DNA of 64,000 bases, from positions 16,002 to 80,001 of the forward strand of contig JAFVIB010000008.1 in the NCBI GenBank assembly GCA_017474235.1, written 5' to 3'. How positions within the stretch are numbered: position 1 is the stretch's first letter; each line of letters begins with the position of its first letter. The notes beneath the pieces were generated by a model, which saw nothing but the letters and a program-made list of their open reading frames with translations, was not told the DNA's origin and did not search any database. Positions 12,284-17,352 of the stretch are shown here, in pieces. Made by a program: the position numbers and the translations under genes. This DNA is from Alistipes sp. (GTDB taxonomy: Bacteria; Bacteroidota; Bacteroidia; Bacteroidales; Rikenellaceae).

Positions 12284-12363
12284 AAAAAAGGCGAGGATGT
12301 ACCCCACCTTGCATGTTTTCACAACGGAAAAAATCCTTATCGTGATTTGCTTTTAAATTTGTA
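12284..12363 (-). ncRNA. tracrRNA of the type II-C CRISPR-Cas9 locus
   Basis: On the minus strand a perfect TTTG-N20-TACTTTTG promoter is followed about 4 nt later by an anti-repeat (12364-12341) giving 22 uninterrupted pairs with the CRISPR repeat (repeat positions 4-25). Then comes a small stem (AAGGATTTTTTCC), a linker, and a 7-bp hairpin (12308-12290: GGTGGGG against CCTCGCC) with TTTTTT (12289-12284), a good intrinsic terminator. Predicted length is about 78-80 nt, compact for a tracrRNA. It is divergent from cas9 and convergent with lpdA. The exact 5' end is inferred. Confidence 0.85.
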
Positions 12364-12366
12364 CTG

Positions 12367-12398
12367 CAAAAGTATAAAATAATTAGTTAAAGTCCAAA
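12367..12398 (-). promoter_or_regulatory. tracrRNA promoter
   Basis: TTTG (12398-12395), 20 bp, TACTTTTG (12374-12367) on the minus strand, both boxes perfect. Confidence 0.8.
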
Positions 12399-12406
12399 CT
12401 TTTTTA

Positions 12407-12414
12407 TAAATTTG
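12407..12414 (+). promoter_or_regulatory. Likely cas9 -7 box
   Basis: TAAATTTG matches TAnnTTTG; predicted start near 12420, leaving a leader of about 20 nt. No strong -33 box is seen (TTAG at about the right distance). A second TAAATTTG (12426-12433) is too close to the ATG for a normal leader and is part of the repeat mimic. Confidence 0.5.
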
Positions 12415-12421
12415 TAATACT

Positions 12422-12436
12422 CTTTTAAATTTGTAC
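12422..12436 (+). promoter_or_regulatory. CRISPR-repeat mimic in the cas9 leader
   Basis: Fifteen bases (CTTTTAAATTTGTAC) identical to 12350-12364, the DNA encoding the tracrRNA anti-repeat; 14 of them match repeat positions 12-25. In the cas9 mRNA they would be perfectly complementary to the 5' end of tracrRNA. They end four bases before the cas9 ATG. Confidence 0.7.
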
Positions 12437-12440
12437 ATAT

Positions 12441-15400
12441 ATGAAACGAATTCTTGGCATTGATTTAGGCTCCTCAAGTATCGGTTGGGCTATCGTTGAT
12501 GAATATAGTGAGGAAATAACGAGCAATGAAAATATCCTTAGTCCTAATCAGGATAAAATAGTCGCGATTGGCAGTCGTGTTATACCTCTCTCAACCGAAG
12601 AGAGCACTCAATTTTCAAAAGGTCAAGCTATTTCAAAAAATGCGGATAGAACAGCCAAACGAACTCAACGCAAAGGCTATGATCGCTATCAACTACGCAG
12701 ATACACACTGCAAAATAAGTTGAGAAATTTAGGCATGTACAATGGTACAACACTCCATTGTTCTAAATTAAAATTATGGGAATTAAGGTCAAAATCCGTT
12801 TCCGAGCAGATTTCTCTGCTTGAACTTGGTCGTGTACTATGTCATATTAATCAGAAGAGAGGTTATCGTACAGCAAAATCTGATTACGGAGATAAGAAGC
12901 TTGGTGCATATGTGGGTAAAGTTATATCAAATCACGCTCAACTGCATGATTTGGGGATGACTGTAGGTCAATACCTATATAGTAATCTAAAAAATAACAT
13001 AGCTTTTCGATGTAAAGATATTGTATATCCTCGCAATGCATACATAGAAGAATTTGACGCAATTTTATCTTGCCAGAAAAGATTCTATCCGAATATTCTG
13101 ACAGATGAAACTATTGATTATATTCGTAATAATATCATCTTTCACCAACGACCTCTCAAGTCATGTAAACATTTAGTTGGCAAATGTGAATTGGAGCGTC
13201 ATAATGTAACTATTGGTAGTAAAATTATTAATTGTGGTCCAAAAGTTGCTCCACGCAGCTCCCCATTATCCCAAGTTTGTAAAATATGGGAGAGTATTAA
13301 CAATATCAAGGTCAAAAATAAAACCAATGACACTCTTTTTATATCATTGGAACAGAAACAAGCAATATTTAAGTATCTAAACACCAATGATAAATTAAAC
13401 GCAACTACTTTAAAAACGCTCCTTGGCATAAAAGGAAAAGAGTGGTTATTTAGCAAGGCTGTGGGGGCTGGAATTCAAGGCAATACAACCTATTGTGCAA
13501 TAAATCAGGCTCTTGGCAATTACCCTAAAAAGGAGGAATTGTTAAAATTTAAAATAACTACAACTGACGGTCTTGTTAATCCCGATACAGGCGAGTTATT
13601 TAAAATAATAGACGAATCATTTGAACAACAACCACTATATACACTTTGGCATACACTATACTCTATTTCAAATATAGAAGAGTTGCAAAAAGTTCTAAAA
13701 AAGAATTTTGGTATAAACGATGATGAGGTTATCAATCGTCTCTGCCAAATAGATTTTGTAAAGAGCGGATACAGCAATAAATCCTCGCGTGCCATGCGCA
13801 AAATATTACCATACCTACAGGATGGAGAGCAATACTATGATGCAAAATTGGCTGCTGGCTATAATGATATAACTCCAACTAAAGCGCAGAATGAGGCTCG
13901 AGAGCTTGTAGAACGACTTCAGCCAATACAAAAAGGTGAATTGCGTCAGCCCGTTGTCGAAAAGGTTATCAATCAGTTGGTCAACCTAGTTAATGCTTTG
14001 ATGGAGGAGTATGGTCGCTTCGATGAAATTAGAGTGGAACTTGCCCGTGAACTAAAGCAAAATCAGAAGGAGCGTGAATTTGCCACAAAAGCCATAAGTA
14101 ACAATAATAAGAAAAATGAGAGAGCAGCTGGGAAAATAAAAGAACTTGGCTTTACGCCAACCCGTTCCCGCATACAAAAGTATCGATTATGGGATGAGTC
14201 TAAAAATACATGTGTCTATTGTGGTAAAACGGTTAATATAGCAGAATTCTTGTTGGGTTTTGGCGTTGAGCGAGAGCATATAATTCCTCGTTCCGTATTG
14301 TTTGACGATAGTTTTTCAAATAAGGTGTGTGCCTGCCGAGAGTGTAACAAGGAAAAAGATAATAACACGGCATATGATTACATGAAGAGTAAAGGAGATA
14401 AAGCGTATAACGATTACATTGAGCGTATTAATCAGTTAGCCGAGGCGTATAATCCAAAACTAGACTACGATTGTGGAATATCTAAAACTAAGCGTGACAA
14501 GCTGCTTATGTCTGCTAGTGAACTGCCTACAGACTTTATTGCAAGACAGCTCAAAGAGAGTCAATACATAGCAAAAAAAGCAAAAGATATGCTACAATCA
14601 ATATGTCATAATGTCTATTCGACAAGTGGCAGCATCACCGATTTTATCCGCCACATTTGGGGCTGGGACGAAGTATTACATTCGCTAAATTTCCAACGCT
14701 ACAAAAATGCCGGTCTTACCGAAATGGTAGAACGAGATGTAAACGGTAAGAAGGTTAAGGTAGAACGAATCAAAGATTGGTCTAAGCGAATGGATAACCG
14801 TCATCATGCTGTTGATGCACTTACTATTGCTTGCACCAAACAGGGATATATCCAGCGTATCAATAACCTCAATTCTTTAAAACAGGTGTCATTCATCTCC
14901 TTTAAAGATACAAAGCAAAGTGAAGATACCATACAAAAGCTAACTCGTTTGGAACGATATATCAAAATGCAACCACATTTCTCAATAGCAGAAGTGGAAA
15001 AGGCTGTTTCTAGTATTGTCGTATCATTTAAAAGCGGTAAACGCTCTGCGACGATAGGTAAAAGATATATACACAAAAACGGTAAGCGAATCTGTGTACA
15101 GCGCGATATTATCATCCCTCGTGGAGCCTTAAGCGAGGAGAGTATATACGGTCGTATTCCTCGCAAAGAAGAGGATGAGACTAAACAATTCTATGTTATA
15201 AAATATCCATTATCTGCATTTGTTGATGGCAAATCTCCAAAGAAACCTGATATTATTATTGACAAAAACATCAGAGAAAGAGTCATCATGAGATTGGAGC
15301 AATATAAGGGGAAGTTGAAGGAGGCTTTCGCAGAGCCGTTACTCGACCATCAAGGATGCAAGATTTGTAGTGTACGATGCAAGACGGGATTAAAAACATT

Positions 15401-15944
15401 AGAGCCTCTGCACTATAATGAGGATGGGAAAGCTATTGCCTTTGCTAAACCTGGTAACAATCATCATGCTGCAATCTATGAAGATAAAAATGGCAAGTGG
15501 CAAGAAAACATCGTAACTCTATGGCATGCTGTTGAGCGTAAAAAGTATGGAATTGATGTCATTATTAAGAATTGTGAGAAAGCTTGGGATAGAGTGCCCG
15601 AAAGTATGCCTAAGAAGTTTGTCGATCAACTACCAAAATCCACTTGGCAATTTAAGTTCTCGCTACAACAAAATGAGATGTTTATCCTCGGCATGGAGGA
15701 GGTGTTGTATCAAGATGCTATGAGCCATAACGATTATGCTCTGTTGAGTAAGTATTTGTATAGAGTGCAGAAGATTGCAGCGGGAGATTATTATTTCCGC
15801 CATCATTTGGAAACAACTGTTGATGACAATTCAAGTATTGCTAAAGATATGGGTAAAATGAAGCGTTTAAGTAAAAAATCTTTATTTGAGAATAACCCCC
15901 ATAAAGTTCATATTAGCATAACTGGTAAAATTACAGAGATATGA
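12441..15944 (+). CDS. cas9: Type II-C CRISPR-associated endonuclease Cas9
   Basis: 1167 residues. RuvC-I starts at the N terminus (ILGIDLGSSSIGWAIVDE, Asp8). An arginine-rich bridge helix follows (RTAKRTQRKGYDRYQLRR, about residues 72-92). RuvC-II has IRVELARELKQ with Glu533. The HNH domain has EHIIPRS with His613, FSNKV with Asn627, and CVYC/CREC cysteine pairs that may bind zinc. RuvC-III has DNRHHAVDA (His789, Asp792). All nuclease residues are present, so it should cut both strands. The C-terminal ~350 residues are the PAM-interacting part. It is more AT-rich and uses GAA, AAA and TTA more than its neighbours, suggesting transfer. Its TGA overlaps the ATG of a truncated cas1. Confidence 0.96.
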   Translation: MKRILGIDLGSSSIGWAIVDEYSEEITSNENILSPNQDKIVAIGSRVIPLSTEESTQFSKGQAISKNADRTAKRTQRKGYDRYQLRRYTLQNKLRNLGMYNGTTLHCSKLKLWELRSKSVSEQISLLELGRVLCHINQKRGYRTAKSDYGDKKLGAYVGKVISNHAQLHDLGMTVGQYLYSNLKNNIAFRCKDIVYPRNAYIEEFDAILSCQKRFYPNILTDETIDYIRNNIIFHQRPLKSCKHLVGKCELERHNVTIGSKIINCGPKVAPRSSPLSQVCKIWESINNIKVKNKTNDTLFISLEQKQAIFKYLNTNDKLNATTLKTLLGIKGKEWLFSKAVGAGIQGNTTYCAINQALGNYPKKEELLKFKITTTDGLVNPDTGELFKIIDESFEQQPLYTLWHTLYSISNIEELQKVLKKNFGINDDEVINRLCQIDFVKSGYSNKSSRAMRKILPYLQDGEQYYDAKLAAGYNDITPTKAQNEARELVERLQPIQKGELRQPVVEKVINQLVNLVNALMEEYGRFDEIRVELARELKQNQKEREFATKAISNNNKKNERAAGKIKELGFTPTRSRIQKYRLWDESKNTCVYCGKTVNIAEFLLGFGVEREHIIPRSVLFDDSFSNKVCACRECNKEKDNNTAYDYMKSKGDKAYNDYIERINQLAEAYNPKLDYDCGISKTKRDKLLMSASELPTDFIARQLKESQYIAKKAKDMLQSICHNVYSTSGSITDFIRHIWGWDEVLHSLNFQRYKNAGLTEMVERDVNGKKVKVERIKDWSKRMDNRHHAVDALTIACTKQGYIQRINNLNSLKQVSFISFKDTKQSEDTIQKLTRLERYIKMQPHFSIAEVEKAVSSIVVSFKSGKRSATIGKRYIHKNGKRICVQRDIIIPRGALSEESIYGRIPRKEEDETKQFYVIKYPLSAFVDGKSPKKPDIIIDKNIRERVIMRLEQYKGKLKEAFAEPLLDHQGCKICSVRCKTGLKTLEPLHYNEDGKAIAFAKPGNNHHAAIYEDKNGKWQENIVTLWHAVERKKYGIDVIIKNCEKAWDRVPESMPKKFVDQLPKSTWQFKFSLQQNEMFILGMEEVLYQDAMSHNDYALLSKYLYRVQKIAAGDYYFRHHLETTVDDNSSIAKDMGKMKRLSKKSLFENNPHKVHISITGKITEI

Positions 15945-15994
15945 TTAAGAGAACTCTCTACTTCGGCAATCCCGCATATTTTAACTGTATTTGA
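15941..15994 (+). pseudogene. cas1: cas1 remnant, 14 codons
   Basis: ATG 15941 overlaps the cas9 stop in the ATGA arrangement typical of intact cas9-cas1 operons. The codons read MIKRTLYFGNPAYF, the usual opening of type II-C Cas1, and then run into the first CRISPR repeat at 15984, stopping at TGA 15992-15994. The remaining ~280 codons of cas1 and all of cas2 are absent from the window. The break falls exactly at the repeat edge. Confidence 0.85.
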
Positions 15995-16260
15995 TATGTC
16001 AAAGATACAAATTTAAAAGCAAATCACAACATTGATGAACTCAAGGCTGCTGCCATCAATACTGTATTTGATATGTCAAAGGTACAAATTTAAAAGCAAA
16101 TCACAACTACGGTATTTCGGTTGTAGATCTGTAGGTTACTGTATTTGATATGTCAAAGATACAAATTTAAAAGCAAATCACAACTGATATTCATAAACAT
16201 TGTTTACGAGAGCAACTGTATTTGATATGTCAAAGATACAAATTAAAAGTAAGTCACAAC
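15984..16260 (-). CRISPR. Three-spacer type II-C CRISPR array, 47-bp repeats
   Basis: Repeats at 15984-16030, 16061-16107 (one A-to-G change), 16138-16184 and 16215-16260 (46 bp, one deletion and two substitutions). Spacers of exactly 30 bp at 16031-16060, 16108-16137 and 16185-16214. The crRNA strand is the minus strand, since repeats begin GTTGTGATTTGC there and match the tracrRNA anti-repeat. The degenerate repeat is thus the first transcribed. Each repeat holds GTTG-N19-TATCTTTG on that strand, an internal promoter (N18 in the degenerate copy, TACCTTTG in the second). Spacer 16031-16060 has 7-bp inverted ends. Confidence 0.97.
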
Positions 16261-17321: not shown

Positions 17322-17352
17322 CAAAGGTACAAATTAAAACGCAAACTACAAA
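17322..17352 (-). promoter_or_regulatory. truA promoter abutting the start codon
   Basis: TTTG (17352-17349), 19 bp, TACCTTTG (17329-17322) on the minus strand, then TGT and ATG. The predicted start falls at or next to the AUG. Confidence 0.7.

Follow-up and report, generated by a model that had tools for sequence, protein, structure and literature searches.

We analyzed a 64,000-nt stretch of an Alistipes sp. genome (GCA_017474235.1, contig JAFVIB010000008.1, positions 16,002 to 80,001; hereafter the window), in which a cas9 gene is directly followed by an array of clustered regularly interspaced short palindromic repeats (CRISPR) and preceded, on the minus strand, by a predicted gene for the trans-activating CRISPR RNA (tracrRNA). 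The subject here is a 12- to 13-nt motif in the cas9 leader that is complementary to the predicted 5' end of the tracrRNA. The features of the locus are collected in Table 1. The anti-repeat of the tracrRNA matches the array repeat at 22 of 22 compared positions, and the predicted 3' end of the RNA is a terminator-like hairpin with a U run. The presence of Cas9 and of a tracrRNA able to pair with the repeat through its anti-repeat agrees with type II-C, TIGR01865 itself naming type II and not the subtype.

Table 1. Features of the cas9 locus, with positions counted from the first nucleotide of the window
Feature	Position	Strand	Basis or detail
cas9 (type II), 1167 aa, uninterrupted	12441..15944	+	TIGR01865 cas_Csn1, E 1.6e-147
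Predicted tracrRNA, 79 nt, 5'-ACAAAUUUAAAAGCAAAUCAC...	12284..12362	-	Anti-repeat against array repeat, promoter, and fold; both ends predicted
tracrRNA nt 1-13, complement of cas9 leader	12350..12362	-	Predicted 93% unpaired in free RNA
tracrRNA -7 box TACTTTTG	12367..12374	-	-33 TTTG at 12395-12398, spacing 20
Predicted cas9 -7 box TAAATTTG	12407..12414	+	Weak -33 TTAG at 12383-12386
Predicted cas9 mRNA 5' untranslated region, 22 nt, first base A	12419..12440	+	Inferred from -7 box
tracrRNA-pairing motif CUUUUAAAUUUGU (predicted pairing)	12422..12434	+	Sequence comparison
CRISPR array, 4 repeats and 3 spacers	15984..16260	-	Rfam CRISPR-DR49, all four repeats below gathering score
Array repeats	15984-16030, 16061-16107, 16138-16184, 16215-16260 (last degenerate)	-

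An earlier note on this DNA had pointed to the 15-nt sequence CTTTTAAATTTGTAC, which indeed occurs twice on the plus strand, at 12350-12364 and at 12422-12436, the latter four bases 5' of the ATG at 12441. Matches to this stretch with up to three mismatches numbered 10 in the window, against 2.86 expected (standard deviation, 1.81), and no shuffle out of 100 gave as many. The exact 13-mer CTTTTAAATTTGT has five copies in the 1.97-Mb genome, namely in the tracrRNA gene, the cas9 leader, and three array repeats, all of this locus; one mismatch added two further places, and a backwards control pattern gave six places with at most one mismatch. When the 30 nt upstream of 221 open reading frames (ORFs; 297 kb of the genome) were compared with the 12-mer, cas9 alone matched at 12 of 12 positions, two leaders matched at 10, and twelve at 9. 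The predicted duplex with the tracrRNA 5' end was also lowest in energy for cas9 (-11.7 kcal/mol), the next being truA (-9.2 kcal/mol). The genome-wide count of exact copies and the comparison of the 221 leaders speak against chance as the main explanation of the match. Relatives retain 12 nt of this stretch, followed by a T in 9 of the 11 loci that carry the motif; the final AC of the 15 nt is found together in no other carrier. As a separate observation, the leader and promoter region of truA (17322-17351, minus strand), the second-best tracrRNA partner among the 221 leaders, reads TTGTAGTTTGCGTTTTAATTTGTACCTTTG followed by TGT ATG and matches the CRISPR repeat by 87% over 30 positions; it may be a shared promoter form or a stray repeat serving as promoter.

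Relatives were sought in 200 genomes, in 180 (genus), and in 268 (family), and by one Cas9 scan of genome contigs. The contig scan of the best 80 of 150 relatives gave 79 loci, and 19 close loci from it and the window's own (L041) made up 20 distinct close loci with Cas9 proteins ~59-70% identical to that of the window. Duplicates were set aside (L031-L039 and L047-L051, which are the same loci, and L131 and L132, whose leaders are identical to those of L059 and L061). The 19 closest named records were mostly Alistipes or Rikenellaceae, with one each from Tidjanibacter, Paludibacteraceae, Porphyromonadaceae, and Muribaculaceae. An array repeat could be read in neither L062 nor L065, and a single one in L057. 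The exact 12-mer CTTTTAAATTTG was present in 9 of the 20 leaders (L041, L052, L053, L054, L056, L057, L058, L064, and L067), 6-8 nt 5' of the cas9 ATG, and a variant was present in two more (CTATTAAGTTTG in L060 and CTTTTAAATCTA in L066). In the Cas9 tree, the nine exact carriers, L060, and three non-carriers formed a clade of 13 (97/94), and L066 split off before the other 19 loci (88/95). Within this clade, which was picked from the tree regardless of the motif, 9 of 13 leaders matched at 12 of 12 positions and one at 10 of 12. The motif is either old, with several losses, or was gained at least twice. Changes in the upper stem of the tracrRNA were seen in six of the nine loci that lack the motif and in two of the 11 carriers (Fisher p 0.065, with no correction for kinship). 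An order-wide search for close Cas9s yielded 10 genomes besides that of the window (54-56% identity), and in the eight of nine new loci with a readable leader the motif was not seen by eye. A scan of viral contigs with Cas9 gave one stretch, which is not a relative, and plasmid and phage DNA compared with the 200 bp around the site gave three records and one record, none with a match reaching 12422-12434.

We examined the constraint on the motif among the 11 carriers, which were chosen for bearing it, so that the values are conditional on that choice. At fourfold-degenerate cas9 sites the mean pairwise difference was 0.64 (146 shared sites, none invariant, i.e., saturated), whereas at the 12 motif sites it was 0.06, with eight sites invariant and one missing base (L066) scored as a difference. 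None of 1,000,000 resamplings of 12 fourfold sites was as low. Eight of the nine bases around the motif were, like the fourfold sites, saturated: the three bases 5' of it gave 0.60-0.67 and the second to sixth bases 3' of it 0.60-0.76. The first base 3' gave 0.35; it is the T kept in 9 of 11, and it can pair with tracrRNA nt 1. The distance from the motif to the ATG was steady (6-8 nt) and that to the predicted transcription start variable (2-11 nt), which points to translation and not to a DNA operator or promoter, although few insertion or deletion events lie behind this pattern.

The ends of the two RNAs were predicted from promoter elements. In mapped Bacteroidota promoters, the -7 box TAHHTTTG lies at -12 to -5 (PMC6847099 and PMC9723704). 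For the tracrRNA, a -33 TTTG at 19-21 nt was found in 19 of the 20 loci and not in L124. In all 11 carriers, TTTG stands 19-20 nt before a TAnnTTTG box (20 nt in 10 of them and 19 nt in L066), and after 4 nt an A or G follows. The tracrRNA of the carriers is thus predicted to begin with ACAAAUUUAAAAG (GCAAAUUUAAAAG in L058 and L064), L060 and L066 each differing by one base. For cas9, where the boxes used in the duplex analysis were picked by hand and then rechecked, TAnnTTTG was exact in 17 of 20 loci and read TAnnTTTA in L062, L066, and L124, and the -33 element was weak. This box lies 22-34 nt before the ATG in 19 of 20 loci, whether or not the motif is present, and 172 nt before it in L061. 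The predicted 5' untranslated region (UTR) is accordingly 18-30 nt in 19 loci and 168 nt in L061, with A as first base in 17 of 20; in Bacteroides thetaiotaomicron, the commonest 5' UTR length is 23 nt (PMC7366714). The cas9 mRNA of the carriers would begin 2-11 nt 5' of the motif. In the window the predicted start, 12419, lies upstream of the motif and of 12436, so that the site falls within the predicted 5' UTR. The motif itself is complementary to nt 2-13 of the tracrRNA, and in 9 of 11 carriers a T faces nt 1; the 3' edge of the motif coincides with the predicted 5' end of the tracrRNA. In predicted folds of the free tracrRNA (L061 was left out of the folds and of one alignment of close loci), nt 1-13 of the carriers were 80-98% unpaired and nt 14-22 only 26-45%; the latter being mostly paired fits the other edge of the motif.

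Next, pairing between leader and tracrRNA was evaluated with RNAduplex. In the nine exact loci the energies ranged from -10.4 to -15.8 kcal/mol; L066 gave -10.8 and L060 -7.4. For the nine exact loci and L066, 1-10 of 1001 values (1000 shuffles and the real one) were as low. By contrast, eight of the nine loci that lack the motif gave -3.6 kcal/mol or weaker, and L061, with its long leader, gave -8.4 (p 0.13). Distant Bacteroidota loci served as a control: of 85 identifiers, 12 had no start found, 7 had no upstream tracrRNA, 1 had too small a gap, and 3 had repeated leaders, which left 62, including 8 without a tracrRNA box whose 5' end was set at a fixed distance. The lowest p among these 62 was 0.023 and no such site was seen, which indicates that the pairing test does not fire at random. 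In L066, an upper-stem position of the tracrRNA is changed from A to G, and the leader has C there, whereas the array repeat still has U. The L066 leader gave -10.8 kcal/mol with its own tracrRNA and -6.2 with the ordinary one. Judged by predicted energies, the leader change restores pairing; it is the sole two-sided change, and it follows the tracrRNA and not the array repeat. The covariation with each locus's own repeat that the earlier note had expected was not seen in that form: the L066 leader tracks the change in its own tracrRNA, the L066 repeat being unchanged, L060 is unmatched, and 9 of 20 loci have no motif. The array repeat is the stronger partner for the same tracrRNA, at -26.3 to -26.6 kcal/mol against -7.4 to -15.8 for the leader, a difference of ~11-19 kcal/mol in the 11 carriers.

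On balance, these results suggest that, in this group of gut bacteria of Alistipes type, the 5' end of unprocessed tracrRNA probably pairs with the cas9 leader mRNA and hinders its translation. The primary, unprocessed tracrRNA would begin single-stranded, its nt 1-13 being the upper-stem part of the anti-repeat. These nucleotides would form 12-13 bp with CUUUUAAAUUUG(U), which occupies roughly half of the short predicted 5' UTR and ends 6-8 nt before the AUG. Such a duplex would lie within the ribosome-binding and initiation region and would reduce cas9 translation under excess free tracrRNA. In Flavobacterium, structure around the start codon lowers translation; across the phylum, Shine-Dalgarno sequences are lacking and structure close to the start tunes translation (PMC6847099), for which reason repression is the likely outcome. 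The crRNA (CRISPR RNA) repeat, as the stronger partner, would withdraw the tracrRNA, and Cas9 synthesis would then follow the guide supply. Conserved complementarity over the ribosome-binding region, as expected of an antisense small RNA, is present in 11 of the 20 loci, weakly in L060. The earlier proposal of feedback on cas9 through complementarity to the tracrRNA is partly supported overall: complementarity to the tracrRNA 5' end, conservation unlike that of the neighboring bases, and a position within the predicted 5' UTR all agree with it.

Several observations weigh against repression by pairing. The motif is missing in 9 of 20 close loci (L055, L059, L061, L062, L063, L065, L068, L109, and L124), whose best matches reach 4-8 of 12, and the choice of carriers by the motif itself qualifies the tests made among them. 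The duplex is AU-rich, and Bacteroides lacks an obvious Hfq or ProQ homologue (PMC7366714). There is only one compensatory change, and by our own estimate (two substitutions among 12 sites) the chance of such a match in L066 is ~0.06; the second substitution there (last G to A) loses a pair, and the predicted cas9 start of L066 is less sure because its box is imperfect (TATATTTA). In L060, the tracrRNA is changed in such a way that the unchanged leader U could still wobble, yet the leader has A, a mismatch, with a duplex of -7.4 kcal/mol (p 0.055).

The foremost alternative, although unlikely, is that the motif acts as a second promoter from which cas9 would be transcribed almost leaderless; TAAATTTG fits the Bacteroidota -7 box TAnnTTTG, and the resemblance to the repeat would stem from the AT-richness of both. 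TAnnTTTG stands 3-10 nt before the ATG in 12 of 219 sampled ORFs, among them the cas9 motif itself and truA, and a TTTG precedes the motif's box in 5 of 11 carriers, by 19 nt in L058 and L064 and by 21 nt in L053, L054, and L056. The other six carriers, however, have no TTTG at 19-21 nt, and a separate box is found 22-34 nt before the ATG in 19 of 20 loci, regardless of the motif. Moreover, the six sites that the box leaves free (CTTT and nn) are conserved like the six box sites (0.06), a value that none of 1,000,000 draws of six fourfold sites reached. TAHHTTTG is kept at the motif in 9 of 11 carriers; L066 has TAAATCTA and L060 TAAGTTTG, the latter with a G at -9 that is virtually absent from the mapped boxes of Flavobacterium johnsoniae (PMC6847099). 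This last point is soft, and predicted boxes elsewhere also break the rule, namely TAGTTTTG for the L058 tracrRNA, with G at the neighboring free position, and TATATTTA for L066 cas9. As a whole, a second promoter fits worse than pairing that acts on translation.

It is quite improbable that the motif is an operator, with a DNA-binding repressor recognizing CTTTTAAATTTG at the start of both divergent genes. The copies do lie just downstream of both predicted start sites and share one change in L066, but the tracrRNA copy is already accounted for by repeat pairing, the spacing is held to the ATG and not to the predicted start, and the end of the motif falls on the predicted 5' end of the RNA. 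We give similarly little credence to a helpful role, in which pairing of tracrRNA with cas9 mRNA shields the 5' end or delivers tracrRNA to nascent Cas9: the same pairing evidence would serve it, and the site lies almost at the 5' terminus of the predicted mRNA, but a duplex 6-8 nt before the AUG would be expected to hinder initiation (PMC6847099). Least probable by far is that the leader, together with tracrRNA and Cas9, yields a noncanonical crRNA or is cut by RNase III, as the earlier note had considered; tracrRNAs can be reprogrammed to other RNAs (PMC11246509), but only the upper-stem part of the repeat is copied, its lower-stem part lies outside the predicted mRNA, and the 2-11 nt of predicted mRNA 5' of the motif are too few for a guide. 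A full repeat mimic with a guide was also considered and rejected, in which TTGTGAT stands at the right spacing before the motif in several loci; it overlaps the promoter box and lies upstream of the predicted start.

If tracrRNA pairing represses cas9 translation, the tracrRNA may further act as a sensor of guide supply, an extension that we put forward tentatively and as rather less than probable. Its free 5' end would repress cas9 translation, and transcription of crRNA, each repeat seemingly carrying a promoter, would remove it, keeping Cas9 in step with the number of guides. Since the repeat pairs at about -26 kcal/mol and should win, the signal would be free tracrRNA. The tracrRNA would thus serve two separable functions, and its anti-repeat would retain the upper stem partly for the second of them, which would supply a second reason for the conservation of that stem. 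A pairing site of this kind would provide feedback without a regulator protein, matching the nuclease to the guide RNA and avoiding unused Cas9 in cells with small or silent arrays, and in loci moved whole into other bacteria the tracrRNA dosage may feed back on cas9.

Related systems differ in the RNA, the target, or the geometry. In tracr-L, the natural single guide of Streptococcus pyogenes type II-A (PMC11417352), a tracrRNA product lowers cas expression, as is proposed here, but no guide is seen in our case, and it is the ordinary tracrRNA 5' end that is complementary to the cas9 mRNA leader. A tracr-L-like form, which would be a long tracrRNA bearing a repeat-like part of its own and a guide against the cas promoter, was not found, since the motif (repeat sense, plus) and the anti-repeat (minus) are on opposite strands and one RNA cannot hold both as a hairpin; the search covered this form and no other long forms. 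Noncanonical crRNAs and reprogrammed tracrRNAs (PMC11246509) likewise involve an anti-repeat pairing with an RNA that is not a crRNA, whereas here the upper stem alone would pair and no guide-length sequence lies 5' of it. The scaRNA of Neisseria meningitidis type II-C, acting on efeUOB (PMC13431127), is also a CRISPR-linked small RNA with an mRNA 5' UTR as target, but it is not a tracrRNA and its target is not cas9. B. thetaiotaomicron small RNAs such as GibS (PMC7366714) likewise have an unstructured, AT-rich seed, and their genus also lacks an obvious homologue of Hfq or ProQ, whereas the RNA considered here is the tracrRNA, with crRNA as main partner. Racr RNA anti-CRISPRs (PMC10651486) have repeat mimicry in common with the motif. 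Neither the literature matches listed, which cover few subscription papers, nor the accessible text of a CRISPR-regulation review (PMC10013973) contained a report of tracrRNA acting on cas9 mRNA or its leader.

Other features of the locus were also noted. Between cas9 and the array (15944-15984) there is no room for cas1, and PF01867 (Cas1) had no match in the window's genome (98.9% complete), whereas matches were obtained in 9 of 14 genomes as a control; the search was for Cas1 and not for Cas2. The CRISPR system of the window may thus lack its own spacer acquisition, the leader motif being kept nonetheless. In L052, unlike the window, cas9 is followed by two ORFs that resemble Cas1 and Cas2 by look (not family-scanned). 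The array repeats of the window (15984-16260, minus strand) and of relatives carry a predicted Bacteroidota-type promoter, TTG-N19-TA(TC/CC/TA)TTTG, near the repeat 3' end, and the window's repeat contains TTG-N19-TATCTTTG, as read from sequence. A promoter within each repeat has been described for II-C systems (PMC12080349), and each spacer here may have its own start site from a repeat-borne promoter. In L109, a second sequence like the tracrRNA core was seen ~6.4 kb past the cas9 ATG, on the opposite strand and beyond the array. Finally, in distant Bacteroidota (L013, L014, L016, L078, L081, L087, L088, L093, L098, and others), only 36-41 nt separate the predicted tracrRNA start from the cas9 ATG, and this interval holds no TAnnTTTG box; in those loci, the promoter of cas9 may be located within the tracrRNA gene, which would give overlapping antisense transcripts.
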